From the NCBI GenBank assembly GCA_014730235.1, contig WJIO01000314.1:1-21375 (forward strand): a stretch of DNA of 21,375 bases. Direction: 5' to 3'. Position numbers and translations under genes: made by a program. Shown here one piece after another: positions 1,032-17,267 of this stretch; within the stretch, counting starts at the first letter, position 1; every line of letters starts with the position of its first letter. Below the pieces are notes generated by a model. It saw only the letters and a program-made list of their open reading frames with translations, made no database searches and was not told the origin of the DNA. The stretch is from Candidatus Poribacteria bacterium. Its GTDB lineage: Bacteria; Poribacteria; DTPJ01; WJIO01.

Positions 1032-3965
1032 ATGAATACAAAAAATATATTTAAATATCTGAAGAAACTGCCCGGAAAATGGCTTCTGCCTGTTATTGCC
1101 CTTGTGTGGGTACTCGGAGTTGGATTTCAGTGGATAAGCGTAAGAATATGTATTATTCTAACTGTTTTGATTGTGGTTGGCTGGCTTGTTTACCTGCTGA
1201 TAAAGAAAATTCAGGCAAGGGGTGAGGATCAGGAGCTTCTGAAGGCAGATCCAGAGGCCATACCTGATTTTGAGAAAAGGGTGGCAAAAGCGGTTAAATC
1301 TTCAAAGGGTAATAGCTGGTACATGCTTTTGGGCCCTCTGGACAGCGGGAAAACCAGTTTATTGCGCAACTCAAATCTGGACTTTTCGTTCATCGATTCA
1401 TTACAGGAAAAACCAATTAGACAGGATATCGAAGAGACCAAAAACTGCGACCTGTTTTTTACAAATTCATCAACCATTATTGATACTTCCGGAAGGTATG
1501 TAAATTTTGGTAATGAAGTAAAGGAAAAGTCTGAATGGCTTGCGTTGATGTCTATCCTTAGAAAATACAGAAAGGAAAAACCTTTAGATGGTATTTTGAT
1601 AACTGTAGATGTGGACAGCCTTCTGGGATATACTGAGGAGGAGAGGGAAAAAATAGCCAGGTCTATCAGAAATCGAATATCCGAAATCATAAATAAACTA
1701 AAGACAACGTTCCCGATATATCTCATATTCACAAAGTCCGACATGATATATGGATTTTCCCGGTTCTTCGATGATCTGGAGGACGCTGATCGAAGTCAAG
1801 TATGGGGAGCTACCCTTAAAGCTCAGAAAATTGAAAAGCCTGAAGTCTCCTTTATGGCTGAATGTGAAAGCCTTTTTAATAATCTGAAGAACAAGCAGTT
1901 TCAAAAACTTGCTTCATCGGACAGGGAGGACAGAGGAACGGTTTACAGCTTTCCGATGGAATTCTACTATACTTGCCAAAAGCTTTCACCTTTTGTTAAG
2001 GATGTTCTCTCCATTCAGTCTGAGGAAAAACCAATTTTTCGCGGTTTTTATTTTACAAGTGCGACCCAGAACGAAAATTCCCCTGTTGAGCTTGTATTAA
2101 AAGAAATGGCGGAATCCTTTGAGGATGAACCGCCTATATTGACAAAAAAGACAGATACAGAGAAGAAAAGCTATTTTATAAAGGATGTATTTCAAAAGGT
2201 GGTCTTTCCGGATAGCGGATATATTAAACCTCTAACAGAGGCTGTCCGCCATGGGAATATCCTGAGGTTGGTGTCCAGTGCTTTTATTCTGGCTGTATTT
2301 GTGATTCTTGGGATTTTAATCACAGTGTCGTATGTGCAAAACAAAAAGCTTATGGCTGATACCAGAAACGCCGCTATGCCTTTGAGCAAAGGGACAGAAA
2401 ATATAAGCTCTATACAATTTGAAAATCTGCGTAAGCATATTATACAACTGGAAAAATCCGACATTTTCAATGTCATATGGCAAAAACAGAGAAATATGGT
2501 AGCTGGAGCTGCAAGGAAACTTTATCTTACGGAAAAATATGGTGACAATAACAGTTGGGAGGTAAAGCTCAGCCGTAATGTAAAGATACCGATAAGGGTA
2601 ATTAAATCGGAGAAAGGCAATCTGGAACCCATAAGAGATGCAGAAATAAAAGCCGTTGTGGATGGCAGGGAATATATTGTAAAAACTGATGAAAGAGGTT
2701 CTGCGGATCTGAATCTAGAGGTGCAGGATGGTAGAACTGATGTGGTCTTGAGCACAGACCATCAGGAATCAGGATATGAACCCCAGACAGAAAAAGTATA
2801 TCAGATAAAACCGGGGGAAACTGTCAGCACCAACGGCGTGGAGTTCCTGTTTTCAGAGATGGGACGGGTTGTGAATGTTCATATAACAGACCAATCCGGG
2901 CAGGATCTAATGGGTGTACCGATTTCTATTATTGAAGTGAAGGATGAATCGAAAAAATATGGGCCTGAGATAACCAATGAACAGGGAGTGGTTCAACTGC
3001 GAATAGAAGCACCTAAGGAAACAGAACTTCTGGTATATTATGGGGATTCCCCTAAAAGCTATCCCGCAGAACAACCGGATACAGTTGTTATCGAGTCGGG
3101 CAAATCAAGATATAGTCTGGAACGTCAACTTAGGCGAAAAATATCCATCTCTGTGGTAGCTTTTGAAGAATCCAGGCCAAAGCCGGGGGTTTCTATTTCA
3201 GTCGAAGGGGAAAAATTAGGCGTAACAGGGCCTGATGGGCAGTGGTCAGGAGCAGGTGATGAAATTCCCACAGAGCAAAACGTCAGTGTAAGACCTGAAC
3301 CGGCATTATTAAAAGTTGAAGAGACTGTCAACGGTTACAGCGTGGTATTGGAATATACACCAAAAGAGCCAGCACCAGTGCTGGAAGTAACTGATAATTC
3401 AGGCATGATTTTGAATGACGTTGAGGTATGGGTTTATAACCCCGAGTCCATAAAATCCATAGATGAGATGAATTTTAATTCAGAAGGTAAAGTATATAAG
3501 CTTGTGCAGATTGATGCAGATGATAGCCAGAAGTCACTGGAAATACCAAAGAAAGCCAAGAGTCATAAGCTTCTTTTGTATAATAAAAACTACTGGCCTC
3601 AGGTAATTGAACCAGACCAGATAGACAAGCCAATTAAAATGGTGGATATTGATGAGGAACGATCATTGGAAAGCTTTGAAAAATATCGGAGAGATGGAGC
3701 GGAGCATTATTATGAAGAAGCTGAACGGTATCATTCTCAGTCAAAGCTGGAGGAAGCGGCTGAAAGCTGTCATAATGCTATTCGACTAACACCAAGATTA
3801 AAGCATTATCTAAAACTTGCATGGATATATTATGAAGATGGAAAAGCAGACGAAGCATTGGCGGTGGTTGATACAGGACTGAATGTTAAGCTTACAGGAG
3901 ATACGGAAGCTGATGAACAGCTTTTAAGACAGCAGTTATTGGAATTAAAGAATCTTTTTGAATAA
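1032..3965 (+). CDS. tssM: T6SS inner-membrane protein TssM (IcmF), variant with Ig-like repeats and C-terminal TPR
   Basis: 977 residues. The N-terminus has two adjacent membrane segments (about 17-35 and 37-57), then the cytoplasmic IcmF domain. That domain has Walker A GPLDSGKT at 101-108, DTSG at 151-154, a TKSD at 234-237, and the TssM signatures FRGFYFTS (about 346-353) and SYFIKDVFQKVVFPD (390-404). A third membrane segment follows at about 423-445. In a typical TssM a long periplasmic region follows and ends in the TssJ-binding domain. Here I instead see three or four beta-rich, Ig/carboxypeptidase-regulatory-like repeats (about 518-575, 622-672, 703-745, 780-860; note GVPISI, TNEQG, KPGVSI, GPDGQW), then a TPR-like helical stretch (888-955). 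It is shorter than the usual TssM of roughly 1100-1200 residues. First gene of an operon with four lipoproteins. The TssM identity of the N-terminal half is firm; the replacement of the periplasmic half is my reading. Confidence 0.88.
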   Translation: MNTKNIFKYLKKLPGKWLLPVIALVWVLGVGFQWISVRICIILTVLIVVGWLVYLLIKKIQARGEDQELLKADPEAIPDFEKRVAKAVKSSKGNSWYMLLGPLDSGKTSLLRNSNLDFSFIDSLQEKPIRQDIEETKNCDLFFTNSSTIIDTSGRYVNFGNEVKEKSEWLALMSILRKYRKEKPLDGILITVDVDSLLGYTEEEREKIARSIRNRISEIINKLKTTFPIYLIFTKSDMIYGFSRFFDDLEDADRSQVWGATLKAQKIEKPEVSFMAECESLFNNLKNKQFQKLASSDREDRGTVYSFPMEFYYTCQKLSPFVKDVLSIQSEEKPIFRGFYFTSATQNENSPVELVLKEMAESFEDEPPILTKKTDTEKKSYFIKDVFQKVVFPDSGYIKPLTEAVRHGNILRLVSSAFILAVFVILGILITVSYVQNKKLMADTRNAAMPLSKGTENISSIQFENLRKHIIQLEKSDIFNVIWQKQRNMVAGAARKLYLTEKYGDNNSWEVKLSRNVKIPIRVIKSEKGNLEPIRDAEIKAVVDGREYIVKTDERGSADLNLEVQDGRTDVVLSTDHQESGYEPQTEKVYQIKPGETVSTNGVEFLFSEMGRVVNVHITDQSGQDLMGVPISIIEVKDESKKYGPEITNEQGVVQLRIEAPKETELLVYYGDSPKSYPAEQPDTVVIESGKSRYSLERQLRRKISISVVAFEESRPKPGVSISVEGEKLGVTGPDGQWSGAGDEIPTEQNVSVRPEPALLKVEETVNGYSVVLEYTPKEPAPVLEVTDNSGMILNDVEVWVYNPESIKSIDEMNFNSEGKVYKLVQIDADDSQKSLEIPKKAKSHKLLLYNKNYWPQVIEPDQIDKPIKMVDIDEERSLESFEKYRRDGAEHYYEEAERYHSQSKLEEAAESCHNAIRLTPRLKHYLKLAWIYYEDGKADEALAVVDTGLNVKLTGDTEADEQLLRQQLLELKNLFE

Positions 3966-3984
3966 GTATTGATATAATTCCAAA

Positions 3985-3990
3985 GGGAGG
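3985..3990 (+). promoter_or_regulatory. Strong ribosome binding site of lipoprotein 1
   Basis: GGGAGG six bases before the ATG at 3997. It fixes the start that gives the lipoprotein signal peptide. Confidence 0.75.
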
Positions 3991-3996
3991 AAAGAT

Positions 3997-5166
3997 ATGA
4001 ATATAAAGCTAAATCTTTTGACAACTTCAATAATTCTGGTTTTTTACCTGTTAATTTCGGGATGCGGCATATTTGGCGGCGGTAAAGAAGAAAAGCAAAT
4101 GGCGAAGGAACTTGAATCAAAACCAGTCCAAACAAGTACATCACCAGAACCTCTTCCAGCAGCCAAGGTGTCATCAGATACGGATTTTGAGACAGATGAA
4201 ATGGACTATGAGGAGAGTCTGGTAAATGGTTCACTTAACTGGTCCAAGGGTTTTATTCGAGCAAAAGGTTTTGGTGTACTGCCGGATAATGTGAAAAACG
4301 AACAACAGGCAAAACTCATGGCCTTTAGAGCCGCCTATGCTGAAGCTTTGTCTTCCCTTTATGAAGTTGCTAAAGGTGTTCAGGTAACAGCTACAACAAA
4401 AGTAAATGATTATGTGCTTAAGGAATATTCTATCGAGCTAAAGGTAGACGGTGTTATAAAGGGCGCAAAGGAAATCGCAAGAGCTTTTGATGATAAAGAA
4501 AATGTGGCGGTGGTTGAGGTTGGCATTGCTATGGAAGATGTGGCTATGTCCATACCAAAGGAATTTGTTGAACCTGCTTCCACTACTTTCCAGTTTGCTG
4601 TCTGGGAACATGATGAAAGTGATACGCTGAAAGAGATAGCCGGTGATAATGACAAACTAATAGAAACCATAGAGAACAGTGAAAACCTCGAAGAAATAGA
4701 AGGCAAGCTGGAGAAAATGGCTGAGGATAATAAAACTCTTTCAGACCAGAACCAGCAGTTACTTTCAGCTATAGAAAAGCTGACTAAAGAGATCGAGGAG
4801 CTTAAGAGCAAACATCAGCAGGTAGAATATACAGGGATAGTTATCAATGCCGCTGGCTCAGAAGTAAAGCCTTGTATGGCCCCGGATATTTACGTTCATA
4901 GTGAAGATACCAATAAGCTTATTTATGGTATAGAAGACGGTAGGGAAAGAGATAATAATCTGCATGCCCTCGTAGCATGGGAAAAAACCATAAGCGGCGC
5001 TAAGAATAACCCCCGTGTTTGGGAAAATCCACTGGTTATTAATGCATCTCATATCTCAAAAGCCCAATCGGCTTTTGCCATCAGTTCCGAAGACGCAAAG
5101 CTTATCGAAAAGGTAAACGAAAAAATGAATCTGTTGGAACAGGGTAAGGTTGTCATTGTAATCTAG
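3997..5166 (+). CDS. Outer-membrane lipoprotein 1: LPP20/FlgP-like domain, coiled coil, conserved C-terminal domain
   Basis: 389 residues. It has a lipoprotein signal peptide with lipobox LISGC (Cys23). The +2 residue is Gly, so by the Lol rule it should go to the outer membrane. A low-complexity Pro/Ser/Thr linker (about 40-60) precedes an LPP20-type domain (about 86-190: GFGVLPDN, then AKLMAFRAAYAEALSSLYEV and a GV-Q-V-TT turn). LPP20 is the fold of flagellar FlgP. A Glu/Lys/Leu-rich coiled coil covers about 211-275. The C-terminal domain (278-389) has TGIVINAAG, KPCMAPDIY, IYG and a final EQGKVVIVI. I associate that pattern with large LPP20-family lipoproteins. The gene lies 31 bases after tssM and 10 bases before the next, so it is co-transcribed. 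Likely periplasm-facing and oligomeric; its role in the T6SS is inferred from position. Confidence 0.75.
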   Translation: MNIKLNLLTTSIILVFYLLISGCGIFGGGKEEKQMAKELESKPVQTSTSPEPLPAAKVSSDTDFETDEMDYEESLVNGSLNWSKGFIRAKGFGVLPDNVKNEQQAKLMAFRAAYAEALSSLYEVAKGVQVTATTKVNDYVLKEYSIELKVDGVIKGAKEIARAFDDKENVAVVEVGIAMEDVAMSIPKEFVEPASTTFQFAVWEHDESDTLKEIAGDNDKLIETIENSENLEEIEGKLEKMAEDNKTLSDQNQQLLSAIEKLTKEIEELKSKHQQVEYTGIVINAAGSEVKPCMAPDIYVHSEDTNKLIYGIEDGRERDNNLHALVAWEKTISGAKNNPRVWENPLVINASHISKAQSAFAISSEDAKLIEKVNEKMNLLEQGKVVIVI

Positions 5167-5176
5167 AGGTTAAAAA

Positions 5177-6853
5177 ATGCTATCCAGAATTTTTATCTTA
5201 ACATTTTGTTTAATTCTGAGTTTATTTCACCTTACCGGTTGTGGTGGAAAAAGCGGAAATACAACCATTATTGTGAAACCAGAGGCAGAATTGAAGGAAA
5301 CATGGAATATCCTCATACTGCCTTTTGAAATATCAGGCAAATCAAAGCTTACAGGTGAAGATGCTATGAACCTTCTCATGTCTGACTTGATAGACATGGA
5401 AGGTTATAAAGTAATAGAACGGGAGTCTCTGGGCGGGGCACTGGATCAAATCGGTTTTTCGTTAAGTGACCTGTCAAATTCATCAAACACCCTTAGAGTA
5501 GGACAGTTCTTAGGAGCGAGACTTTTTTGTATTGGCAGTATAAATAAGCGTATAAATCTTATTACTGCCAGAATTACACTTACAGAGACAAGAGAGCAGT
5601 TGTTTATTGTCCAATCACGAAACAAAAATGAGCTTGAAGGAATTCGGGAAATAAGCAATCAGATTAAAGAAAAACTGTATAGCTCAGATTTAATAACATC
5701 CCTGAATAAACATTCAGAGGTGTCTGAAAAACCAGCCTCACCGCCGCCAAAGTCCGTTGAGGTAAAAGGCTACGGTCCTATAGTTGATGATGATATAGCC
5801 ACAGCCAGGGAGTTAGCCCTGAAAGATGCGTATTCCAAGGCTATCGAACAGATATCCGGTGTTAAGTTAATGCGAAGAACTCAGGTGCAAAATTATCAGT
5901 TGGTTCAGGATAAAATCCTGACAGAGTCTGTTGGTTATGTGGCATCTTACGAAATCCTTGATGAAAATAAAGAGGGTGAATTTGGCTATGAAATTTCGGT
6001 AAATGCAAGCGTAAGCCAGGAACCCTTGAAAGAATTAGATAAATTACCGCTAATGGTGAAATATCTTTTAGCTGATCCCCGAATCGTGGTTACTATTGAG
6101 GGTGATTTATTAGGAAAACCCATGGAACAAAGCCGATCAAGTCTTATTGCAGGTCAGATTTCAGGTCAACTGCAAAAAGCCGGTTTTTCTGTAATAGATC
6201 CCAAGGCAGTAGAAGATAAGAAAAAGGACTTTGCTGATTCCCTCAGTAAGGAGGATGCAGCCCGTTTAGGAAGTATTCTTAACGCAAATGTAACGGTACG
6301 TGGCAGTATATCCACATCAATCACCAGTAAGATTGAAGAAATTGACGGCAAAAAACTTGACACTCCGCCTATAGCGGCTGCTACGACGGGTAGTTTCCAG
6401 ATCGTTCTGACGGATACAGCAGAGGTGGTATCAACTATTAATCATGAAATCCTTTCTCGACAAGAAAAGGTAGGCTACGGAAGCAGAGATGATGCAGCGG
6501 TTGGGAGATCTCTGGACGCTTTTACTCAGGCTATTGGGGGTAAATTGGCCTGGGAACTTGCATCAAGCCTTGGTGGGCCGGCTACTATAAGACTTACCAT
6601 AAGGGATTTAACTCTCGAAGAAGCAGAAAAAATACGAAAACAGCTTCAGGCTATGCCGGAACATATTGTCCTTGAGGTTAAAATGCTTAATTTTAAGAAT
6701 AACGTGGTTGATTATCAAATAAAAACCGCTGTCAAAAGCATGGTACTGCAAAAAAAGCTTATGAACAGTCTTGATGCAGAAGCTCTGAAAGCCAAGGAAT
6801 TTTTTATGGAATCCGTTGATTTTGGGGCGATTGTCATATCGTTGAAGCGATGA
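5177..6853 (+). CDS. Outer-membrane lipoprotein 2: CsgG/FlgO-like plus FlgT-like domains
   Basis: 558 residues. Lipobox HLTGC (Cys22) with Gly at +2, so outer membrane is expected. Domains in order: a CsgG/FlgO-like module (about 41-145: NILILPFE, then SDLIDMEGYKVIERESL and a GARLFCIGSI strand); a Pro-rich linker (185-192); a FlgT-N/LPP20-like module (196-283: VKGYG, ARELALKDAYSKAIEQISGV, then TESVGYVASYEI and a YEISVNASV strand); a second module with a CsgG/TolB-N-like pattern (about 290-455); and a C-terminal alpha/beta domain (about 468-558). This order resembles FlgT of the Vibrio flagellar H-ring with a CsgG-like domain added in front. An AGAGGT before the start and 4-base overlap with the next gene indicate coupled translation. 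Function in the T6SS is inferred. Confidence 0.72.
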   Translation: MLSRIFILTFCLILSLFHLTGCGGKSGNTTIIVKPEAELKETWNILILPFEISGKSKLTGEDAMNLLMSDLIDMEGYKVIERESLGGALDQIGFSLSDLSNSSNTLRVGQFLGARLFCIGSINKRINLITARITLTETREQLFIVQSRNKNELEGIREISNQIKEKLYSSDLITSLNKHSEVSEKPASPPPKSVEVKGYGPIVDDDIATARELALKDAYSKAIEQISGVKLMRRTQVQNYQLVQDKILTESVGYVASYEILDENKEGEFGYEISVNASVSQEPLKELDKLPLMVKYLLADPRIVVTIEGDLLGKPMEQSRSSLIAGQISGQLQKAGFSVIDPKAVEDKKKDFADSLSKEDAARLGSILNANVTVRGSISTSITSKIEEIDGKKLDTPPIAAATTGSFQIVLTDTAEVVSTINHEILSRQEKVGYGSRDDAAVGRSLDAFTQAIGGKLAWELASSLGGPATIRLTIRDLTLEEAEKIRKQLQAMPEHIVLEVKMLNFKNNVVDYQIKTAVKSMVLQKKLMNSLDAEALKAKEFFMESVDFGAIVISLKR

Positions 6854-7482
6854 TAAATGTTTTTATAAATCCGTATGGACGTATATTAATATATCTCTGT
6901 TTGATAATTCTCTTTGGTTGTTCCAGCTCTAAAAAAACAGATATATATACACCTGATGAAACAGCGCAAAAACTTTACCTTAAGAGTCAACAGGAACTTG
7001 CAAAAGGTGAATACAGACGGGCATATATGGATTATAAAAGCGCACTAACTGAAGACCCGGGTATTGCAAACACCAGCCATCTCTCAAGTATAATATATGA
7101 GTGGGTTATACGGAAAAGTGAGGGAGAGGATGTTATTTTACTCAAAGCTCAGAAAAATGTCTGGCTTAAACCAGAGCAGTTGGAATTGAGGAAGCAACTG
7201 CTTTCCACTGCTGTCAGGGATAATATTATAAACGTATTTGGTCTGGGTATGTCCTCAGATGAATTTGTTAACTCTCGCCAAAGGCGATTATCTGCCAGAA
7301 AATCCGCTTTGATGGACTGTCAGGCATGGACAGCACGTTTATCAAGTTGGATTGAAGACGGAGTTAATGGTTCCTTCAACGCTAAATCCTCTTCAGGTAA
7401 AATTAAGGTTGTAAAAGAGTTTTGGGTTGATGATACCATATATGTTATCAAAGCAAAAGCATCGTCAGAAGATTTGGAATAA
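6850..7482 (+). CDS. Outer-membrane lipoprotein 3: TPR-like segment and partial LPP20-like motif
   Basis: 210 residues, starting inside the stop of the previous gene (ATGA overlap). Lipobox LFGC (Cys24) with Ser at +2, so outer membrane is expected. About 37-70 reads as one TPR-like helix pair (AQKLYLKSQQELAKGEYRRAYMDYKSAL). The C-terminal third (about 140-205) has ARKSALMDCQAW followed by a strand pair ending in KVVKEFWVDDTIYVIKAKA. This is the same ARxxAxxDA-then-strands pattern as the LPP20/FlgT-N modules in the two preceding lipoproteins, but without the second half seen there. I do not recognise a named family. Only 5 bases separate it from the next gene. Probably a small partner of the other lipoproteins. 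Confidence 0.68.
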   Translation: MINVFINPYGRILIYLCLIILFGCSSSKKTDIYTPDETAQKLYLKSQQELAKGEYRRAYMDYKSALTEDPGIANTSHLSSIIYEWVIRKSEGEDVILLKAQKNVWLKPEQLELRKQLLSTAVRDNIINVFGLGMSSDEFVNSRQRRLSARKSALMDCQAWTARLSSWIEDGVNGSFNAKSSSGKIKVVKEFWVDDTIYVIKAKASSEDLE

Positions 7483-7487
7483 AAACT

Positions 7488-8771
7488 ATGAATAAGTTAA
7501 ATCTAACTGGTGTTTTAATCGTTATTATATTTTTAATTGGATGTACCCCCAAGAGTCTAAGGCAAGGAAACAGCTATATCGAAAACGGAGAATATCCTCA
7601 AGCCCTGGAAGTTCTTACCGATGCCCTTAATAATAATCCGGATAACCCAAAAATTCATCGAAGTCTGGGTATAGCTTACTACAAAACGGGCCAGTATGAA
7701 CAGGCTTTGGATGAATTTGAAAAAGCAAAACAAAAGCTGGATGATGATGGCATTATAATGTTCTATTCAGGTTTAAGCTTTGAACAGTTAGCTCAGTATG
7801 ACAGGGCTATTGAGGAATATTCCAATTATGTCAGACTGGGGAGATTCAGCAGTATCAGGAGCAAATTAAGACAAAGAGTTCAACAATTGATACCAAAACA
7901 GGCGGCTCAATGGGCTAAAGACCGGATGAAGACAGAAAAAGAGATCAATCCGGTTGATATTCCCGATAACAGCATCGCAGTTGCGTATTTCAAACCGCTA
8001 AATATCTCAGAGGAATTAAGATCCCTTCACATAGGGTTGACAGACCTGTTGATCCTTGATCTGTCAATGATAAAAAGTCTCAGGGTAATCGAAAGGGTAA
8101 AGCTGAAGGAAATTTACGAGGAATTGGGTTTCAGCACAACGGATTTTGTGGATGAAAATACCACACCTCGAATGGGTAAATTGCTGGGAGCCAGTTCTCT
8201 TGTGACTGGTGTATTTACAGGATTTGGTGATGAACAATGGCGCATTGATCCTGCTCTGGGTTGGATTAAATTGGATGATTATATGACTCTTGAAAGTGTT
8301 GAGGGAAAACTCCAGCAGTTTTTTGCAGTTGAAAAGGAACTGGTCTTTGATGTTCTTGAAAATCTTGATATTACAGTTACCGAAGAGGAAAAAAATCAGA
8401 TAATGAATAACATACCTACGAAGTCGTTAAAGGCTTTTCTGGCTTATTCCAGAGGGCTTGATTATGTGGACAGGGGTATGTATTCTGAGGCCATATCGGA
8501 ATTTGAATCAGCCTTAACTATAGATCCCGGGTTTAACATATCCGGTGCAAAAATGGCAAACGCAAAGCTACTGAGCCAGTCAATGGACTCCACAAACCGG
8601 TTGGAGGAAGTTTTTGATTCTGCAATCCTTTTGGCGGAAGAGAAGAATCAGCTTATGATAACCACACTGGAGAACACCTCGCAAGCAGGATTGACTCGTT
8701 CTCCAAAAAGTGAATTGGCATTTTCCGAAGCTCAGTCCGATGTTGAATTGGAAATACTATTTCAATGGTAA
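7488..8771 (+). CDS. Outer-membrane lipoprotein 4: TPR - CsgG/FlgO-like - TPR
   Basis: 427 residues. Lipobox FLIGC (Cys19) with Thr at +2, so outer membrane is expected. About 23-115 holds two to three TPRs with clear consensus (NPKIHRSLGIAYYKTGQYEQ and the repeat around 88-115). About 160-300 is CsgG/FlgO-like: SIAVAYFKPL, LTDLLILDLSMIKSLRVIER, and GKLLGASSLVTGVFTG. This strand-helix-ER-helix-GA pattern is also in lipoprotein 2. A further TPR lies at about 311-350 (AYSRGLDYVDRGMYSEAISE). CsgG itself is the curli export channel, an outer-membrane lipoprotein nonamer. Whether this protein keeps pore-forming segments is not visible. Last gene of the tssM operon; a mobile repeat follows 28 bases after the stop. 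Confidence 0.75.
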   Translation: MNKLNLTGVLIVIIFLIGCTPKSLRQGNSYIENGEYPQALEVLTDALNNNPDNPKIHRSLGIAYYKTGQYEQALDEFEKAKQKLDDDGIIMFYSGLSFEQLAQYDRAIEEYSNYVRLGRFSSIRSKLRQRVQQLIPKQAAQWAKDRMKTEKEINPVDIPDNSIAVAYFKPLNISEELRSLHIGLTDLLILDLSMIKSLRVIERVKLKEIYEELGFSTTDFVDENTTPRMGKLLGASSLVTGVFTGFGDEQWRIDPALGWIKLDDYMTLESVEGKLQQFFAVEKELVFDVLENLDITVTEEEKNQIMNNIPTKSLKAFLAYSRGLDYVDRGMYSEAISEFESALTIDPGFNISGAKMANAKLLSQSMDSTNRLEEVFDSAILLAEEKNQLMITTLENTSQAGLTRSPKSELAFSEAQSDVELEILFQW

Positions 8772-8799
8772 ATAGCTTTACCCAAACGTAAGAAAAAAT

Positions 8800-8918
8800 G
8801 GCTCTTCCGGGTTTAGTCTGGTAAAGATAGGAAATTTCCTTGTGCTGTCATTCCTGCTTTTGCAGAATTACATGCTGAGAGAATATTTAATTATAACCAC
8901 ACTAAACCCGGAAGAGCC
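8800..8918 (-). repeat. MITE-like element, copy B (119 bp, inverted orientation)
   Basis: The terminal inverted repeats are perfect over 18 bp: GGCTCTTCCGGGTTTAGT at 8800-8817 and ACTAAACCCGGAAGAGCC at 8901-8918. The internal arms match copy C only when reverse-complemented (TGGTAAAGATAGGAAA on the left equals the right arm of copy C), so this copy is flipped. The core palindrome is decayed (CTGTCATTCCTGC / GCAGAATTACATG). The flanking 8-mers GAAAAAAT and AAAAGAAT agree at 6 of 8 positions, a possible worn target duplication. Confidence 0.85.
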
Positions 8919-8938
8919 AAAAGAATTAACCTTTATAC

Positions 8939-9025
8939 CTACCAAAAAGGAAAGTTTCTATTTGACAAACAGTACTTGAATATGTAAACTATAGAAACCT
9001 GAATAAAAACTTGTGGTTTTGGTAG
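8939..9025. promoter_or_regulatory. Nested inverted repeats around the tssA promoter (candidate operator)
   Basis: The outer arms are CTACCAAAA (8939-8947) and TTTTGGTAG (9017-9025), perfect over 9 bp. The inner arms are GTTTCTAT (8954-8961) and ATAGAAAC (8991-8998), perfect over 8 bp. The inner arms directly abut the -35 and -10 boxes. The two pairs have slightly different centres (8982 and 8976). A regulator site is a reasonable inference; the regulator is unknown. Confidence 0.45.
8962..8990 (+). promoter_or_regulatory. Strong sigma70-type promoter for the tssA-vgrG operon
   Basis: A perfect TTGACA (8962-8967), a 17-base spacer, and TAAACT (8985-8990), about 120 bases upstream of tssA. 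This is the best promoter match in the window and implies that tssA onwards is a separate transcription unit from tssM and the lipoproteins. Confidence 0.6.
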
Positions 9026-9109
9026 AGATTGCTTACTGAAAATTCTATAGAGTCATGCATATACTGGATAATCCAATTGTGGAGTATTATCCCAATAAGG
9101 GGGAAATAG

Positions 9110-10810
9110 ATGTCCCAACTTTTGGAAAACATAGCTGACCCGATTTCTGATTCTCAACCCAGCGGGGAAGATATAGCCAGACTTGAACCATCAGCCCAGA
9201 ATGAGGAATGGATACAGAAATATGCCGAACTTCGCGGTCTGGTCAACAGAATATCCAGCAACAGCGAGGTAATTGTAAGCATTAGCTCTGATATATTATC
9301 GGGTAAGTCAAAAGATCTAAGGATAGCCGGCCATCTGTGTTTGGGATTGCTTTACCAAAACGGTTTTGCCGGACTTTCAGAAGGCATTAAGGCTTATCAT
9401 ATACTACTGAGAGATTATTGGGACAAAGGTCTATATCCATCCAGAGATTCTGCAAGGCTTAATAACTTAAAAACTCTGGATGGACGTTTAAGCAGTGATA
9501 TTACAGCCAAATCCCGGGCGGATGAAAAAGAGTTTTTTGTCCCATCATCAGCATCAGACAGACAGGCTTTTGAGGAAATCATACAGACCATAGCAGATAT
9601 AAAATCTGACATGGAAGATAGAACATCCAACAATACAACACTTTTGGATAACTTCAATAGAGCCATCAATACCCGACTGAAAGCTTTAGGGCCTGACACT
9701 ACCAAGCCAAAACCACCGCCAAAGGCAGAAGATCCCACTGATAAGAAAAAGACCAGTATTTTCAGAAAGGTTGTTCCTTCCTCATGGAAACCCGATGAAG
9801 AAGAAGCAAAAGCCGAAACTGGGATAGAATTTAAAAATGAAATGGAGGCTATAAGGGCGGTTATACAGGCAGCCAGATATCTGCTTAATAAAAATCCAAG
9901 AAGCGTTGTTCCATATCGTATAGTACGTTCCAGCCTTTGGTATTCCCTGCCGTTGCCGAATCCTAATCCTGACAGGCAAGGAATCAAGATGACTCCTATA
10001 CCCTTTCCGTCGGGTAAATCTCGGCTTGAAGAACTTATGAGCAACGAGGACTGGGAATCCATGCCAGTAGAATGTGAATCTGTATTTGTGGAAAATTTCG
10101 AGGCCGGAGGTGGAGGGTGCTTTTGTCTGGATATTCAGAGGTTTCTGAGTACAGCTTTAAAAGAATTGATGACAAATTCAGATGCAAAGCTTAAAGGTGA
10201 TTATGAAACGCTAAATAAATTTATCATACAGGAAACAGCCCTTTTTGTTGAACGTTTTCCGTGGATTACTGAGATCGTATATTCCAATGGTACGCCCTTT
10301 GTGGATAACCAGACAAAGGTTTGGCTTGAAAAATCGGTAAAGCCTATATTCGACTCAGATTCCAATCAGCAGAATAGCCCGAATACAAAGGAGAGCGCGG
10401 AGAAATTATCAGGGATAGACGAGGATATTGCAAAAGCCGAAGACCTTTTATCAAGGCAGAAATGGCAGGATGCCCTTATAATGATGCAGTCGGGCATAAA
10501 TACAGAACCAAACCCCAGAGGTAAATTCAGACGCCGCCTTAGCCTTTCGGAGATATGTCTGGATGCAGGTCAGCCGGAAATGGCCCGACCGCTTCTGGAA
10601 CAATTGGACGAGGAAATTCAGCATTTTTCCCTTGATCAGTGGGAACCTGACCTATGCCTTCAGGTATGGATTGGCCTAAGGCGATGCTACCGGGATATGA
10701 TATCGCAAAAGTCACGACAGACAAACGAAGTTGCGTATGAAGAAAAAATAGATAATTTATTTGAAAAGATTTGCAGACTCGATATTCGAGCTGTATTGGA
10801 TTCAAAATAA
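9110..10810 (+). CDS. tssA: T6SS assembly protein TssA (ImpA N-terminal domain, VasJ-type C-terminus)
   Basis: 566 residues, preceded by AAGGGGG six bases before the ATG. The ImpA_N domain occupies about 8-135, with the typical opening ISDSQPSGEDI, then SSDILSGKSKDLRIAGHLC and DYWDKGLYPSRDSARLNNL. The middle (about 195-215) is a Pro/Lys-rich linker. The C-terminal helical domain (about 440-560) reads KAEDLLSRQKWQDALIMMQ, then RRRLSLSEICLDAGQPEMAR and LLEQLDEEI, as in VasJ-type TssA proteins. TssA proteins act in the cytoplasm at the baseplate and at the growing sheath end. First gene of the second operon; a mobile repeat is inserted right at its stop codon. Confidence 0.92.
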   Translation: MSQLLENIADPISDSQPSGEDIARLEPSAQNEEWIQKYAELRGLVNRISSNSEVIVSISSDILSGKSKDLRIAGHLCLGLLYQNGFAGLSEGIKAYHILLRDYWDKGLYPSRDSARLNNLKTLDGRLSSDITAKSRADEKEFFVPSSASDRQAFEEIIQTIADIKSDMEDRTSNNTTLLDNFNRAINTRLKALGPDTTKPKPPPKAEDPTDKKKTSIFRKVVPSSWKPDEEEAKAETGIEFKNEMEAIRAVIQAARYLLNKNPRSVVPYRIVRSSLWYSLPLPNPNPDRQGIKMTPIPFPSGKSRLEELMSNEDWESMPVECESVFVENFEAGGGGCFCLDIQRFLSTALKELMTNSDAKLKGDYETLNKFIIQETALFVERFPWITEIVYSNGTPFVDNQTKVWLEKSVKPIFDSDSNQQNSPNTKESAEKLSGIDEDIAKAEDLLSRQKWQDALIMMQSGINTEPNPRGKFRRRLSLSEICLDAGQPEMARPLLEQLDEEIQHFSLDQWEPDLCLQVWIGLRRCYRDMISQKSRQTNEVAYEEKIDNLFEKICRLDIRAVLDSK

Positions 10811-10812
10811 AA

Positions 10813-10931
10813 GGTTCTTCCGGGTTTAGTGTGGCTGTAATTGAAAATTTTCTCAGCTGTCATTCCTGCTTTCGCAGGAATGACAGCATAAAGAATTTTC
10901 CTATCTTTACCACACTAAGCCCGGAAGAACC
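10813..10931 (+). repeat. MITE-like element, copy C (119 bp, perfect 8-bp target duplication)
   Basis: Terminal repeats GGTTCTTCCGGGTTTAGTGTGG and its right-end partner match at 21 of 22 positions. The core is a perfect 14-bp stem (GCTGTCATTCCTGC, 10856-10869; TTTC loop; GCAGGAATGACAGC, 10874-10887). It is flanked by the direct repeat AAATAAAA at 10805-10812 and 10932-10939. The left duplication contains the tssA stop codon. Removing the element plus one duplication leaves about 19 bases between tssA and tssB, a normal operon gap. Confidence 0.93.
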
Positions 10932-10956: not shown

Positions 10957-11454
10957 ATGTTAAATGTTCCAAAATCTAGAGTTACGATTGATTACGTCAA
11001 ACACACAGGAGACGCCGCAGAAAAGCGTGAATTACCCCAGCGAATGCTGGTTGTAGGAGACTTTAACTTTAAAGAACCTGATCCCGATGATATTTTGGCC
11101 GAAAGGGATAAGGTGGAGATCAACCAGCGCAATTTCAACGAAGTGATGAGAAAGCAGGACGTTAAGCTAAATATTACCGTTCCAAATAAATTAACCGATA
11201 AAGAGGGTGAGGAAATAAATGTGAATCTTGATCTCAAGGACATGAATTCTTTCCGTCCCGAAGCCATCGCCTCACAGATAGAAGAGCTTAACACACTTTT
11301 GAAGGTGCGGGAACTGCTTATCGCTTTGAAAAGCCATCTGGTTAGCCGACGCCAATTCCGCAGAGAGTTGGAGCGGATTATCAAAACTGATCTGGATTCG
11401 GCCATGAAGGAACTGTCAGCTTTAGGTTATATGCCGGAGGAAGAATCTGAATAG
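10957..11454 (+). CDS. tssB: T6SS contractile sheath small subunit TssB (VipA/ImpB)
   Basis: 165 residues with AGGAGG eight bases before the ATG. The N-terminus has the family's hallmark beta strands (RVTIDYVKHTGDAAEKRELP, then RMLVVGDF). The rest includes RDKVEINQRNFNEVM, LNITVPNKL, an LDLKDMNSFRPEAIA strand-helix and a C-terminal helical part (LLIALKSHLVSRRQFRREL). TssB and TssC co-assemble into the sheath that contracts to propel the Hcp/VgrG tube. Length is typical. It is immediately followed by tssC, as is usual. Confidence 0.96.
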   Translation: MLNVPKSRVTIDYVKHTGDAAEKRELPQRMLVVGDFNFKEPDPDDILAERDKVEINQRNFNEVMRKQDVKLNITVPNKLTDKEGEEINVNLDLKDMNSFRPEAIASQIEELNTLLKVRELLIALKSHLVSRRQFRRELERIIKTDLDSAMKELSALGYMPEEESE

Positions 11455-11489
11455 AAATATTTTTACGTAGTTGATAAGGAGATTTTACA

Positions 11490-12986
11490 ATGGCAGAGAG
11501 AGAAGAAGAACAGTTAGAACAACCATCAAAGGAGGTTGAAGAGGAGGAAGCGTCTCTCCTCGATCAGCTTCTGTCAAAAATTGATACCACGCCGCCTGTT
11601 CAGGAAGAGCGGGATCAGCTTGGAATCGCTGTGGGTCATCTCCTAGACGCGGTATCGAAATCCGTTGAAAAACCTGAGCGAGTTGATGGAAAACTTATTG
11701 ATGCCTACATTGCTCAACTGGACAGCAGGTTGAGCGCGCAGTTAGATGAAGTGCTGCACAACGAAGAATTTCAGGAAATAGAATCAGCGTGGCGCGGTTT
11801 GCAGTTTCTAGTGGATAGGGCAAACTTTCAGAGCAATATAAAAATCGAGATGCTAAATATCTCCAAAGAAGAACTTGCAGAGGATTTTGAAGAAGTTGGA
11901 GACCCGTTAGAGGGTGGTCTTTTTACCCACATATATTCCCAGGCTTATGATCAATACGGTGCTGATCCCGTTACTGCAATAGTTGCGAATTATGACTTCA
12001 ACAGCGGTCCTATGGATATCGATTTGCTGAGAAATATTGCTGATGTAGCCGCTGCCGCCCATTGTCCCTTTGTCGCCAGTATCAACCCCCAATTCTTTGG
12101 GCGAAATACCTTTGAAGAGGTGGCTTCTGTGCCGCAGTTAGAGGCCATAATGGATTCACCGGCGTTTCTAAATTGGAATTCCTTCAGGGATTCGGAGAAC
12201 TCAAGATATGTTGGTCTAACCCTACCCCAATTTTTGCTGAGACTTCCATATGGTGAAGATACGGTTAAAGTCAAAAACTTTAACTACAATGAGGATGTCA
12301 AAGCTGAGGATCACGACAAATACCTGTGGGGTAATTCGGCCTTTGCATTGGCTTCGCAGATCAACAAGAGCTTTGCGGAATACGGCTGGCCGGTTAATAT
12401 AATAGGCCCTCAGTCAGGTGGTCTTGTGGAAAACCTTCCTTTGCATACATACGAGGTGGGTGAGGGTATGCAGGACTACAAGATTCCTCTGGAAATCAAG
12501 ATACCTGATATGAAAGAGCGGGATTTTGCCGAACACGGATTTATACCGCTGCTTGTTCATGAGGGACGAAAGGTAGAAGCCGCTTTCTTCTCAGCTTATT
12601 CAGCCCAAAGGCCCCAGGAATACGACGATCCTGTGGCTAATGCTAACAGCAGGCTTAGCTCCCGACTCCCATATGTTTTGTTAGCTTCCAGACTTACTCA
12701 CTATCTGAGAGTTATTCAGCGGGATGAGATTGGGAGAATGTTAAACGCCGGGGATGTTCAGTCTGCTCTTAATAAATGGCTTAACCAGTATGTCTCAGGG
12801 CCAAATCCCAGAAGCGAGCAGCTAAAAGCCCAGAGACCCCTTCAATCAGCCAGAGTTGACGTTCAGGAAAGTCCCGATAAACCGGGAGTTTTTGACGTTC
12901 AGATTTTTGCTACACCCCACTACCAGGCTGAAGAATTTAACATCGAACTATCGCTGGTAGCTGAGATGCCAGAAGCCCGACAGTAA
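11490..12986 (+). CDS. tssC: T6SS contractile sheath large subunit TssC (VipB/ImpC)
   Basis: 498 residues with an AAGGAG ribosome site. The acidic N-terminus is followed by EEEASLLDQLLSK (about 17-30), in the region where VipB-type proteins present the ClpV recognition helix. Family signatures follow: ESAWRGLQFLVDRA, YGADPVTAIVANYDF, CPFVASINPQFFG, SRYVGLTLPQFLLRLPYG, LWGNSAFALASQI, YGWPVNIIGPQSGG and FIPLLVHEGRKVEAAFFSA. The gene is full length with no frameshift. It works with TssB (35 bases upstream) as the sheath protomer, and contracted sheath should be a substrate for the ClpV encoded downstream. Confidence 0.97.
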   Translation: MAEREEEQLEQPSKEVEEEEASLLDQLLSKIDTTPPVQEERDQLGIAVGHLLDAVSKSVEKPERVDGKLIDAYIAQLDSRLSAQLDEVLHNEEFQEIESAWRGLQFLVDRANFQSNIKIEMLNISKEELAEDFEEVGDPLEGGLFTHIYSQAYDQYGADPVTAIVANYDFNSGPMDIDLLRNIADVAAAAHCPFVASINPQFFGRNTFEEVASVPQLEAIMDSPAFLNWNSFRDSENSRYVGLTLPQFLLRLPYGEDTVKVKNFNYNEDVKAEDHDKYLWGNSAFALASQINKSFAEYGWPVNIIGPQSGGLVENLPLHTYEVGEGMQDYKIPLEIKIPDMKERDFAEHGFIPLLVHEGRKVEAAFFSAYSAQRPQEYDDPVANANSRLSSRLPYVLLASRLTHYLRVIQRDEIGRMLNAGDVQSALNKWLNQYVSGPNPRSEQLKAQRPLQSARVDVQESPDKPGVFDVQIFATPHYQAEEFNIELSLVAEMPEARQ

Positions 12987-13175: not shown

Positions 13176-13700
13176 ATGATTAGGATTGGTTATCTTACTA
13201 TTACCCCGGAAACCACAGGTTCACCTATAACTGGCCCGTCAGTATACTCCCAGGCTCCGGATACCATTGAAGTGCTGGATGTAACGCACATGGTACGTCA
13301 TGAATATGACGCACAGCATGGAACACCCTCTGGCGACAGAAAGCATGAACCACTCAGGATTATCAAATCCATTGATTGCACAACTCCCCTGTTATATGCC
13401 ATGTGCTGTAACGCGGAACTACTGACAGAGGTAAAGCTGGATTATTTTGTCCAGATAGGCAGTGCACCAGATCCTGTACCGTTTTTCTCATGGACTCTGA
13501 CAAATGCTTATATCACTCACATCAAATCTATCACAGCAAAGGAAATGCCTGAAGAATTTTCTGAACAATATGATTTGCTTGAAGAGATAGCCTTTTCATA
13601 TCAGGAGATCACATGGACGCACCACGCCCATCGCGCTCCTATCGGCCTTAAGGAACTGCCGCAGGAAATTCAGCAGGACTCGTGGTCTTCTATAGCATAA
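13176..13700 (+). CDS. hcp: T6SS tube protein Hcp (TssD)
   Basis: 174 residues, close to the usual Hcp length, with a strong AGGAGG eight bases upstream. The Hcp beta-barrel pattern is visible: N-terminal strand IGYLTITPE, then TIEVLDVTHMVRHEYD, the loop GTPSGDRKHEPLRIIKSID, and the strand/helix pair TPLLYAMCCNAELLTEVKLDY. These are followed by AYITHIKSIT, then LEEIAFSYQEITWTHH near the C-terminus. Hcp hexamers stack into the inner tube inside the TssBC sheath. A perfect hairpin terminator directly follows the stop, which suggests a separate abundant hcp-ending transcript. Confidence 0.93.
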   Translation: MIRIGYLTITPETTGSPITGPSVYSQAPDTIEVLDVTHMVRHEYDAQHGTPSGDRKHEPLRIIKSIDCTTPLLYAMCCNAELLTEVKLDYFVQIGSAPDPVPFFSWTLTNAYITHIKSITAKEMPEEFSEQYDLLEEIAFSYQEITWTHHAHRAPIGLKELPQEIQQDSWSSIA

Positions 13701-13709
13701 AAAAGCTTT

Positions 13710-13748
13710 GTAATGGGCGTATGTATACGCCCATTACTTTTTATTTTT
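13710..13748 (+). terminator. Intrinsic terminator after hcp
   Basis: Perfect 12-bp stem GTAATGGGCGTA (13710-13721) and TACGCCCATTAC (13726-13737) with a 4-base loop, then the T-rich run TTTTTATTTTT (13738-13748). It begins ten bases after the hcp stop. Some read-through must occur, or another promoter must exist, for tssE-vgrG to be expressed. Confidence 0.88.
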
Positions 13749-13763
13749 GCAATCTATATAACT

Positions 13764-14171
13764 ATGGACGTTGGCTTATTAGAGGGAATATTAGGTAAGT
13801 TTTTCTCCGGTGAACCTATACCAAACCGGGGTGGAAGGGTGCAGAGCATCCGGGAGCACCTATCAATTTTGCTGAACACCCGGCGCGGTTCTGTTCCGCA
13901 TCTTCCTGATTATGGTCTGCCTGACAGCATGCAGGTTTCCATAAAAGATCGGCTTTCTATATCCAAATTCGGAAGGGATATTCAGGAGACGGTCAAAAAA
14001 TATGAACCTCGACTGATGAATGTCCGAGTTAAGCCTATAGAACAGGAACCTGAAACCCTGGCCGATTTTCGACTGGGATTTTTACTGGAAGCGAAGGTTA
14101 TAAATCAAAACGCCCGGTTTCGGGCATTCTTTACCACCTCCGGTTCTGCTGAAATAGAGGATACTAAGTAA
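13764..14171 (+). CDS. tssE: T6SS baseplate protein TssE (gp25-like)
   Basis: 135 residues from the ATG at 13764 (MDVGLLEGILGKFF). An in-frame ATG at 13713 lies inside the terminator stem and would add 17 unlike-TssE residues, so I prefer 13764. No convincing ribosome site is visible before it. The gp25/GPW family signatures are present: SIREHLSILLNTRRGS, PHLPDYGLPD, and the C-terminal YEPRLMNVRVKP strand with RLGFLLEAKV. TssE sits at the baseplate with TssF and TssG and is thought to help start sheath polymerisation. Its stop overlaps the start of tssF by one base. Confidence 0.92.
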   Translation: MDVGLLEGILGKFFSGEPIPNRGGRVQSIREHLSILLNTRRGSVPHLPDYGLPDSMQVSIKDRLSISKFGRDIQETVKKYEPRLMNVRVKPIEQEPETLADFRLGFLLEAKVINQNARFRAFFTTSGSAEIEDTK

Positions 14172-16045
14172 TGCAAAATCCCTTTGGGAAAAAGAAGACA
14201 ATACTGGAATACTTTGACGAGGAATACAGGTACCTGGACGAAGCAGGACGGGAGTTCGCCCAGGCCTATCCACAGCGCGGGCGTTTTCTTAATATTGACC
14301 AGAGGGATGATCGAGATCCCTATGTTGAACGTTTATTCGAGGGATTTGCGTTTCTGACAGGGAGAATCCGTCAGAAATTAGATGACGAGTTGCCAGAGTT
14401 AACTCAATCATTGCTGGGATTGCTGTGGCCGCATTTTGTCAGACCTATACCATCTATGTCAATCCTTGAATTTAAAATGTCTCCGGGACGCGCTCAAAAG
14501 CCATTGATAATAAAGCGGGGAACGGAAGTAGCCTCTCAGCCGTTGAATGGAAAGATATGCCAGTTTCAATCCTGCTATGACCTTTTAGTCCGTCCTATAA
14601 TCCTGAAAAAAGCTGTTTTGGCCGGTGATTCCACGATAAGTTTTCAATTCAGCATAACTGATGATATGGATTACAGAAAGCTCTTCGTGCCATCTGATGA
14701 AAAATATGAATATAACCGGCATTTGAGAAAATCCCTTCGCCTGTTTATACATGACGTGGATCAACCCACCATGTCGGATATTCACCTGTACCTGACGCGA
14801 TATGTTCAACGGGTCGTTATAAAATCCATCCCTGATGGTGCGCAAACTACCATACAGGGACAGGCGGGAGTAATGCCCGTAGGATTTGCACCCCAGGAAA
14901 GCCTGCTGCCGTATACAAACTATTCGTTTTTCGGATATGGATTATTGCAGGAGTATTTCTGTTATCCCAGAAAATTTATGTTCTTTGACATTGTTGGTTT
15001 TGATAGGCTTTCATCTCTACTGGAAAGCACCAATGAATTAGAGGTACAGGTTCATTTTAACAGGCCTTTTCCTATGGAAAGAAGATTTTCCGCCGATAAT
15101 TTCAGGCTTCACTGCGTACCGATAGTTAATCTCTTTAAAACTGAAGCTTTGCCCATAATCGTAAAACATGAGGTTTCAGAATACAGGATTAATCCACCGG
15201 AAGCCTGCGAGTTCTACAGCGTTGATTCGGTTGAGGGTGTTATTAACAGCACTATGAATACCCGAAATTATGCGCCCTTTTACTCTTTTAAACACAATAT
15301 TACAAGAGAAGATCCTTCATCGGACAGGTATTATCATGTTATGACGCGGCAGGGAACGCGTAAAGACGGGGAAGAGAAGCCTGAAAATTATCAGGATGCT
15401 TATATAACCATAGCAAGTCCGGATCTGGAACTGGAAGAATTGAGGGAAGAAACACTTTCCATAAGGCTTACGTGCACCAATGGTCGTCTTTCCCGAGAAC
15501 TTAAAGAGGGTGATATACGCAACAGGACTTCTAATTCCAGTATTCCGGAGTTTATCCAATTCAGAAATATCATACAACCCTCGGTCATAATATACCCGCC
15601 GCTGCAATCAGGATTAGAATGGCGTTTTATTTCACACCTCGCCCTCAATTATATATCCCTTAGCAATCCGGAATCCCTGCGGGGACTTCTGGAGTTATAT
15701 AACTGGATCATAGAAAGAGGGCTAAAAGAAGCAAACTACCGACGTATTTCCAGCATACAGGACATAAGCATAATACCCCGGGAAATTCCTTATCGAGGCT
15801 CTGTTATAAGGGGTATGGAAATAATTCTGGAATTGTTAAAGGAAAATTTCACCGATGATGGTGATCTAAACCTTTTTGGCATGGTTATGGATAATTTCTT
15901 TAAAATGTATGCTTCTATAAATTCCTTTATTCAGTTGACCGTTGTATCCCATGAAACTAAAGAGGTATTGTTTAAATGGAGTCCGGAACCCATGACCCAA
16001 AGAAACAGGAAAAGTATGATCGGGAGAAAATCTCTTCCTCTGTAG
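14171..16045 (+). CDS. tssF: T6SS baseplate protein TssF (ImpG/VasA)
   Basis: 624 residues, typical length. Classic N-terminus: YFDEEYRYLDEAGREFAQ, DPYVERLFEGFAFLTGRIRQ and KLDDELPELTQSLLGLLWPH, followed by RPIPSMSILEFK. Later blocks include GTEVASQPL, LRLFIHD, a YSFFGYGLLQEYFCYPRKF segment, VHFNRPFP, INLFKTEALPI-like and FYSVDSVEGV. The start is the ATG formed by the tssE stop (TAATG), so translation is probably coupled. TssF binds TssG in the baseplate wedge. The 3' end overlaps tssG by 70 bases. Confidence 0.94.
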   Translation: MQNPFGKKKTILEYFDEEYRYLDEAGREFAQAYPQRGRFLNIDQRDDRDPYVERLFEGFAFLTGRIRQKLDDELPELTQSLLGLLWPHFVRPIPSMSILEFKMSPGRAQKPLIIKRGTEVASQPLNGKICQFQSCYDLLVRPIILKKAVLAGDSTISFQFSITDDMDYRKLFVPSDEKYEYNRHLRKSLRLFIHDVDQPTMSDIHLYLTRYVQRVVIKSIPDGAQTTIQGQAGVMPVGFAPQESLLPYTNYSFFGYGLLQEYFCYPRKFMFFDIVGFDRLSSLLESTNELEVQVHFNRPFPMERRFSADNFRLHCVPIVNLFKTEALPIIVKHEVSEYRINPPEACEFYSVDSVEGVINSTMNTRNYAPFYSFKHNITREDPSSDRYYHVMTRQGTRKDGEEKPENYQDAYITIASPDLELEELREETLSIRLTCTNGRLSRELKEGDIRNRTSNSSIPEFIQFRNIIQPSVIIYPPLQSGLEWRFISHLALNYISLSNPESLRGLLELYNWIIERGLKEANYRRISSIQDISIIPREIPYRGSVIRGMEIILELLKENFTDDGDLNLFGMVMDNFFKMYASINSFIQLTVVSHETKEVLFKWSPEPMTQRNRKSMIGRKSLPL

Positions 16046-17076
16046 TGAATCGTCTGTTCCAGAAAGGACATCGCTTCAGCTTTTTTCAGGCGGTAAGCCT
16101 TCTGGAGAAACTCTATAAGGATGCGGCTCATCCCGGTGAAGAAGGGCCCTTAAATCAGGAGAAAATCCGTTTCCATGCCAGTTCAAGACAGTCTTTTCCG
16201 GCTTCAGATATCAGTAAAGTAGAGCATATACAGAGAGATGACAGAGATTATGTCCGAATGATCCTGAATTTCATGGGTCTATACGGTGTTGATTCACCTC
16301 TACCAACCTATTTCTCTGAAATAATATCCAGAGTTCCTGACGAGGATGTGGATACTGAAGAAGAACCGGATGAAGAGGAAAGCGGGATAAAAGCCCTGCG
16401 GAAGTTTCTTGACATATTCGATCATCGTATTTATTCCCTTTTCTACCGAAGCTGGATGAAATATCGCTACCATCTGCAATTCGAGCCAGAAGCAAAAGAT
16501 AACTATTCCCGATACTTGCTGTCCTTTCTCGGTCTGGGAACTCAGGATTCCCAGAGGATTTTTGGGAAAAAGATAAGCCGCCTTATCGCATATTCAGGAA
16601 TAATGAGTCAGAATACTCGATGTGCTGATGGTCTGGCAGGCTTCTTATCTGAATATTATTATGGTGTTGAGGTTGAAATTCTGGAGTTTATCCCCCAATG
16701 GATTAGCATACCAGATCAGTATAGAGCAAGATTAAACAGTCGACAACCTCTGATTTTAGGTGAAGATACTACTATCGGTCATCAAATAATGGATTACAAC
16801 AATAAATTCCGGGTGGTATTGGGGCCGATAAGCTTTGAGATGCTGATTAAATTTCTTCCGGGAAAAAGGAATTTCCGGGAATTATGCAATCTTATATATT
16901 TATATACATCCCGGAAACTTTCTTTTGACGTGCAGTTTGTAATGAAAAAGACAGAAGTGCCGCCGCTGCAGTTGAAGAGTGAAGATGATAGAGAAATAAA
17001 TGCTCAACTGGGTTTAACCACCTGGTTAGGTGAACCACAGTCGGAAAAAGTTCAACTTACGTTATCACCTTATTAA
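15976..17076 (+). CDS. tssG: T6SS baseplate protein TssG (ImpH/VasB)
   Basis: 366 residues. AGAGGT sits about nine bases before the ATG at 15976, which supports this start despite a 70-base overlap with tssF. A GTG at 16045 next to the tssF stop is the alternative and would give 343 residues. Signatures: GHRFSFFQAVSLLEKL, IRFHASSRQSFPASDI, MILNFMGLYGVDSPLPTYF, and LRKFLDIFDHRIYSLFYRSW with MKYRY. A strongly acidic insert (about 119-136, Asp/Glu-rich) precedes the LRKFLDIF block. Partner of TssF in the baseplate wedge. The stop lies four bases before mobile repeat copy E. Confidence 0.92.
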   Translation: MESGTHDPKKQEKYDREKISSSVVNRLFQKGHRFSFFQAVSLLEKLYKDAAHPGEEGPLNQEKIRFHASSRQSFPASDISKVEHIQRDDRDYVRMILNFMGLYGVDSPLPTYFSEIISRVPDEDVDTEEEPDEEESGIKALRKFLDIFDHRIYSLFYRSWMKYRYHLQFEPEAKDNYSRYLLSFLGLGTQDSQRIFGKKISRLIAYSGIMSQNTRCADGLAGFLSEYYYGVEVEILEFIPQWISIPDQYRARLNSRQPLILGEDTTIGHQIMDYNNKFRVVLGPISFEMLIKFLPGKRNFRELCNLIYLYTSRKLSFDVQFVMKKTEVPPLQLKSEDDREINAQLGLTTWLGEPQSEKVQLTLSPY

Positions 17077-17080
17077 AATT

Positions 17081-17243
17081 GGCTTTTCCGGGTTTAGTAT
17101 GGTTATAATTGAAAATTCTCTCAGCTTGTCATTCCTGCGAAAGCAGGAATCCAGTCTTTATTCGGATCTACTGGATTCCTGTTTTCGCAGGAATGACAGC
17201 ATGAAGAAGTTTCTTATCTTTACCATACTAAACCCGGAAAGCC
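17081..17243 (+). repeat. MITE-like element, copy E (163 bp, expanded core)
   Basis: Ends GGCTTTTCCGGGTTTAGTATGG and CCATACTAAACCCGGAAAGCC pair with one base missing on the right. The side arms match copy C. The 26-bp core is replaced by a 70-bp inverted repeat: arms of 27 bp at 17128-17154 and 17171-17197 (26 of 27 matching) around a 16-base spacer, which accounts for the extra 44 bases. The flanks TTAAAATT and TTTACTCG are not a target duplication. It fills the gap between tssG and clpV. Confidence 0.88.
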
Positions 17244-17267
17244 TTTACTCGTTAAGGATCTGGAGCA

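Follow-up and report, generated by a model that had tools for sequence, protein, structure and literature searches.

The contig analyzed here (WJIO01000314.1, Candidatus Poribacteria) carries a type VI secretion system (T6SS) in which four putative outer-membrane lipoproteins, LP1 to LP4, may stand in for the usual outer half of the membrane complex. The window, that is, the whole stretch of 21,375 bp, is the entire contig C254 of the metagenome-assembled genome G000 (5.53 Mb in 451 contigs; completeness 91.6%, contamination 4.8%), and its genes follow the order tssM-like, LP1, LP2, LP3, LP4, tssA, tssB, tssC, hcp, tssE, tssF, tssG, clpV, vgrG. Our main conclusion, which we regard as evenly poised, is that this T6SS joins conventional cytoplasmic parts and an inner-membrane base (TssL and the N-terminal part of TssM) to an outer half rebuilt from a recruited envelope-lipoprotein module. 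The T6SSi sheath, tube and baseplate set (tssB, C, E, F, G, K, hcp, vgrG, tssA and clpV) is present in G000. The gene tssK and the beginning of a TssL-like gene lie on another contig, C97, where the TssL-like open reading frame (ORF) follows tssK and is cut by the contig end; the TssL call is based on this position and on a weak match to a Planctomycetota TssL. Among the 84 genomes of a phylum sample, two of them in the class of G000, TssC was found only in G000 and in G001, a genome of the same order.

The first line of evidence is the TssM variant itself (977 aa; 1032..3965, + strand), a point that an earlier reading of the DNA from its letters alone, hereafter the sequence-only reading, had not made. 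The protein matches PF14331 (3.2e-68), and TIGR03348 over residues 21-462 only; its transmembrane pair and NTPase domain are conserved to about residue 500. A profile built from seven full-length TssMs covers residues 96-500 and nothing after, whereas the alignments of four control TssMs, including a distant one, run the length of the profile. Aligned by hhalign, the C-terminal part gave an E-value of 0.26, against 6e-90 to 6e-22 for the controls, and the profile comparison found no TssM homology beyond about residue 500. The variant has PF14331 alone, without the IcmF-related and IcmF_C periplasmic domains of a T6SSi TssM; a search for IcmF_C was negative in G000 and positive in the two control genomes, G084 and G096. 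The last 480 or so residues (about 500-977) give weak Ig-like matches and a weak tetratricopeptide repeat (TPR) match, all below curated cut-offs, and on sequence grounds the periplasmic part of TssM is replaced by these putative, weakly Ig-like domains and TPR. Since TssJ binds the C-terminal domain of TssM in E. coli (PMC3213119) and TssM homology ends near residue 500, the TssJ-binding part is absent from the window protein. In a tree of TssM N-terminal domains, the window sequence is a long branch among non-Fibrobacterota sequences, with unsure placement.

Candidate parallels for a short TssM were rejected: a Planctomycetota protein (L173, 879 aa) looks frame-shifted, with its remainder in another frame, a Fibrobacterota one (L130) is split by a frameshift, and Myxococcota proteins of 965-985 aa retain the IcmF-related domain, with no LP1/LP2 relative encoded next to them. 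As a separate observation, the Myxococcota loci L161-L166 and L171 hold short TssM paralogues, several of them 965-985 aa long, and within the retrieved sequence most of these stand without further T6SS genes; in the three tested (L162, L164, L165), IcmF-related domains are present and IcmF_C is absent.

The second line of evidence is the lipoprotein cluster, whose four ORFs are all intact and stand consecutively, directly after the tssM-like gene. The lipobox cysteine is at position 23 (LP1), 22 (LP2), 24 (LP3) and 19 (LP4), followed at +2 by G, G, S and T, respectively. The simple lipobox rule used was passed by 21 of 1,676 ORFs of at least 200 aa (1.3%) in 80 other T6SS loci, spurious ORFs included, and by none of the other window proteins. 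Genes are closely spaced, with 31 bp between tssM and LP1, 10 bp between LP1 and LP2, a 4-base overlap of LP2 and LP3 and 5 bp between LP3 and LP4. The sequence-only reading had claimed four consecutive lipobox ORFs with a non-Asp +2 residue, coupled or nearly coupled in translation and set in a T6SS locus; each of these statements was borne out, the last by the tssA, B, C, hcp, tssE, F, G, clpV and vgrG genes that follow LP4. It had passed over the 338-bp gap between LP4 and tssA, which contains an element resembling a miniature inverted-repeat transposable element (MITE). LP1-LP4 are predicted, from their lipoboxes, to reside in the outer membrane.

LP1 (3997..5166, +) comprises, according to a family profile and a structural model, a FlgP/LPP20-type SHS2 domain, a coiled coil and a Tp0624 D2-type domain. 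Its single-sequence match to the LPP20 Pfam family is weak (E 0.75), and the relationship emerges with a profile of the LP1 family (A5) built from 20 sequences, which matches Treponema pallidum Tp0624 at 7.8e-20, C. jejuni FlgP at 2.5e-16 and FlgP of the LPHT ring at 7.5e-9, the solved FlgP chains ranging from 2.5e-16 to 1.3e-6. The LP1 model aligns with Tp0624 D1-D2 (5jir; Z 14.5, 187 residues aligned, root-mean-square deviation (rmsd) 16.9 over two domains) and with H. pylori Lpp20 (Z 8.7). By these profile matches LP1 is a homologue of FlgP with a predicted FlgP-type SHS2 domain, and by profile and model its domain pair corresponds to the D1-D2 tandem of Tp0624. ORF and profile searches found no OmpA-like C-terminal domain of the Tp0624 kind in LP1, which stops after D2.

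LP2 (5177..6853, +) has a partial CsgG/LpoB-like N-terminal domain, FlgT N and middle domains and a further C-terminal domain. Its FlgT_N match (E 3.7e-6) is 1 bit short of the cut-off; the model of residues 192-468 matches FlgT 3w1e (E 2.2e-10; Z 12.0, rmsd 8.9, 216 residues aligned), and the same residues also match a chain of the LPHT ring. On the strength of the model, LP2 carries predicted FlgT N and middle domains; a relative in sequence is LipL46 of Leptospira (2.3e-20). In the models of both LP1 and LP2, the SHS2 helix and the next sheet are separated by two additional strands, with predicted local distance difference test (pLDDT) values of about 39-43 in LP1 and 57-78 in LP2. Ring formation is reported to correlate with an insertion between the SHS2 helix and the second strand (PMC12222027), and as the modelled strands would sit at that place we counted them in favor of a replacement outer half.

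LP3 (210 aa; 6850..7482, +) has a weakly TPR/BamD-like N-terminus (TIGR03302 4.3e-7, far below the cut-off), and the rest of it gave no family assignment; its candidacy as a second LPP20-like protein was not confirmed (hhalign E 0.09). LP4 (7488..8771, +) consists of TPRs (TPR_2 1.7e-20), a partial CsgG-type domain and a further TPR. Matches to CsgG are above the cut-off in LP2 (1.6e-4; model positions 32-98, 67/210) and in LP4 (3.8e-6; 23-103, 81/210), the latter spanning residues 167-248; the N-terminal domain of LP2 is poorly modelled. As each protein matches about one third of the CsgG profile, and nothing in those matches points to its membrane-spanning part, a CsgG-type channel is not shown. 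No match to FlgO was found among LP1-LP4 by profile search, LP4 holding its partial CsgG domain, and LP4 had no useful match to the LP2-family profile. Of the modules named in the sequence-only reading, the FlgP type in LP1, the FlgT type in LP2 and the TPRs in LP4 therefore stood, CsgG did so in part, and FlgO had no match; nothing in the analysis shows the ring or gate that was also proposed.

The third line of evidence concerns TssJ. The TssJ family (PF12790) was not found in G000 and G001, and is present in 19 of the 20 comparison T6SS genomes outside their order; on C97, no tssJ-like gene lies between tssK and the TssL-like gene. Together with the missing TssJ-binding part of TssM, this strengthens the suggestion that the lipoproteins act in place of TssJ. 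A side observation comes from Fibrobacterales: L041 encodes at 7649-9460 a 604-aa TssL-like protein that combines a DotU domain with an end resembling IcmF_C (E 0.0015, below the cut-off), in a genome where no TssJ was found, and is possibly another unusual T6SS membrane complex.

The LP1/LP2 module is a widespread envelope-lipoprotein set, and in this T6SS cluster it lies at the precise spot that lacks the canonical outer half. Before its recruitment it probably served an older purpose in the envelope that had nothing to do with T6SS. The simplest interpretation is that it was taken up as a replacement anchor; a ring, the outer-membrane placement and the function are what we infer. LP1 and LP2 would form a ring or collar, which LP3 and LP4, the lipoproteins with TPRs, would connect to the stalk of TssM; the whole would anchor and pass the machine, replacing TssJ and the gate of TssM. 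A more specific version, in which the T6SS exits through an outer-membrane ring of the flagellar H-ring type, formed by FlgP- and FlgT-related lipoproteins and docked by TPRs to a TssM with a swapped periplasmic pillar, is tentative and stands slightly below even. If true, it would add a further outer-half design to TssJ-TssM, TssNQOPR and the Acinetobacter complex. The passage of T6SS through the outer membrane is still poorly understood, and a system that keeps TssL and the motor half of TssM while exchanging all that lies past the inner membrane would reveal what the baseplate needs of the membrane complex in order to dock, and that TssJ and the TssM gate are exchangeable. Flagellar outer rings and T6SS anchors would, moreover, be connected as two uses of a single lipoprotein module. 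In our literature search, no paper connected T6SS anchoring with LPP20, FlgP or FlgT.

Known systems provide partial precedents. With the canonical TssJ-TssL-TssM complex of T6SSi (PMC3213119), the window T6SS has TssL and the N-terminal half of TssM in common, but the periplasmic half is replaced, TssJ is not found and four other lipoproteins are encoded instead. In the T6SSiii of Bacteroidota, an envelope complex, TssNQOPR, which includes a lipoprotein, replaces the usual one while tail and baseplate are kept (PMC10781749), as in the window; T6SSiii lacks TssL and TssM altogether, however, whereas the window T6SS retains the N-terminal half of TssM and a TssL-like ORF. The Acinetobacter T6SS likewise has a complex without TssJ, in which TsmK and a TssM GS-linker are compensating envelope parts (PMC10564176), but there TssM is kept, with the GS-linker at its C-terminus, whereas the window TssM has lost the periplasmic half. 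For Agrobacterium, too, no TssJ has been identified (PMC3702570). As TssJ-less or replaced envelope parts are thus known in three groups, the window T6SS would be a new variant, not a new kind. On the flagellar side, LP1 is homologous to FlgP, and LP2 resembles the N and middle domains of FlgT, of the Vibrio H-ring FlgO/FlgP/FlgT (PMC6375700) and the Campylobacter FlgP basal disk (PMC12222027); LP1 and LP2 differ in having extra domains, in lacking a FlgO-matching partner and in residing in a T6SS rather than a flagellar locus, since apart from the LP modules the ORF list and profile searches revealed no flagellar genes in the window. LP1 shares its tandem pair with Tp0624 D1-D2 (PMC5104382), but has no OmpA-like domain and has an added lipobox and coiled coil.

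Several points weigh against a recruited outer half. Outer-membrane placement presumes that the Lol sorting rule holds in this phylum. The extra strands are modelled with low confidence in LP1 and with intermediate confidence in LP2, and neither model is strong as a whole (mean pLDDT 70 and 62; predicted TM-score (pTM) low, 0.40 and 0.37). The FlgT likeness of LP2 covers the N and middle domains, a FlgT-type C-terminal domain not being shown. G000 is 91.6% complete and in 451 contigs, tssK and the open-ended tssL being on a contig of their own, so that TssJ could be missing from the assembly only. Finally, LP1/LP2 relatives lie away from T6SS in all loci examined, and no second genome with the tssM-LP1-LP4 arrangement was found, so that the association with T6SS rests on one locus.

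This distribution favors the most serious alternative, which we think rather unlikely: LP1-LP4 would be general envelope or peptidoglycan-associated proteins moved beside tssM, at most aiding passage through the cell wall, with the outer-membrane exit formed otherwise. A TssC-based scan of genome contigs, from which the best 80 loci were kept, revealed no LP1-LP4 relatives save those of the window itself. In Fibrobacterota, where 36 of 167 genomes have a TssM match, the LP1/LP2 relatives are grouped with a TPR lipoprotein (bearing an SLH domain in the one tested) in a cluster of their own, and in genomes with both, cluster and TssM are on different contigs every time. In the phylum of the window, LP1 relatives occur in G003, G004 and G011, all without TssC; in G011 and G003 they lie near amidase-like and TPR genes, called by sequence, and G000 itself has a stand-alone LP1 paralogue (contig C447). 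Myxococcota and Planctomycetota hold LP1-LP2 pairs with no TssM match within the fetched stretches. A survey of Rhodothermia found TssMs and no LP matches, an LP2-only query in the phylum returned nothing strong, and neither a search of plasmids nor a TssC query of viral contigs found any match. Because the composite-query surveys scored only two to four candidates in each genome, they may have overlooked a pair in genomes rich in T6SS. Kinship of the LP1 domain pair with the envelope protein Tp0624 points the same way, and the sequence-only reading, which would have yielded had these genes turned up mostly away from T6SS, is weakened to that extent. What a general envelope role leaves unexplained is the loss of the periplasmic half of TssM, the failure to find TssJ and the tight order tssM-LP1-LP2-LP3-LP4.

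It is improbable that this is a decaying T6SS that has ceased to fire, its short TssM and odd neighbours being debris: the long TssM branch and the MITE-like elements in several gaps would fit, but no ORF is interrupted or out of order, TssM runs on into a long foreign periplasmic region without truncation, and Hcp, TssA-C, E-G, ClpV, VgrG, TssK and TssL are all present. Least probable is an artefact of assembly or binning that wrongly joined lipoprotein and T6SS genes in a fragmented metagenome-assembled genome with 4.8% contamination, for although GC content is 0.38-0.40 in the first 9 kb and 0.42-0.47 later, the change of character falls within one open TssM frame, whose N- and C-terminal halves are alike in GC and codon usage, and gene spacing is operon-like.

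The remaining T6SS genes are all on the + strand: TssA (9110..10810; PF16989 2.6e-45), the sheath proteins TssB and TssC (10957..12986; PF05591 1.2e-43 and PF05943 1.3e-115), Hcp, TssE, TssF and TssG (13176..17076; profile matches), ClpV (TssH; 17268..19886) and VgrG, open at the contig end (19921..21375). The last two were called by sequence and position, and VgrG matches other VgrG-like ORFs. MITE-like elements with inverted ends GGCTCTTCCGGGTTTAGT lie at 8800-8918, 10813-10931 and 17081-~17240, with a single end at 802; the two complete copies are 119 bp long and the third is longer, and they fill the intergenic spaces that precede tssA, tssB and clpV. The element ends matched six times where 0.03 matches were expected. 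An ORF at 17030-17431 that overlaps one element is probably spurious.

In G001, locus L008 encodes at 1475-4984 two tandem TssC-family proteins of 545 and 612 aa with apparently TssB-like N-terminal parts, and L009 carries a separate tssA-tssB-tssC set. At the start of the window, a 250-aa open frame (1-750, - strand), which points away from tssM and is truncated by the contig boundary, encodes a putative secreted protein resembling outer-membrane beta-barrels.
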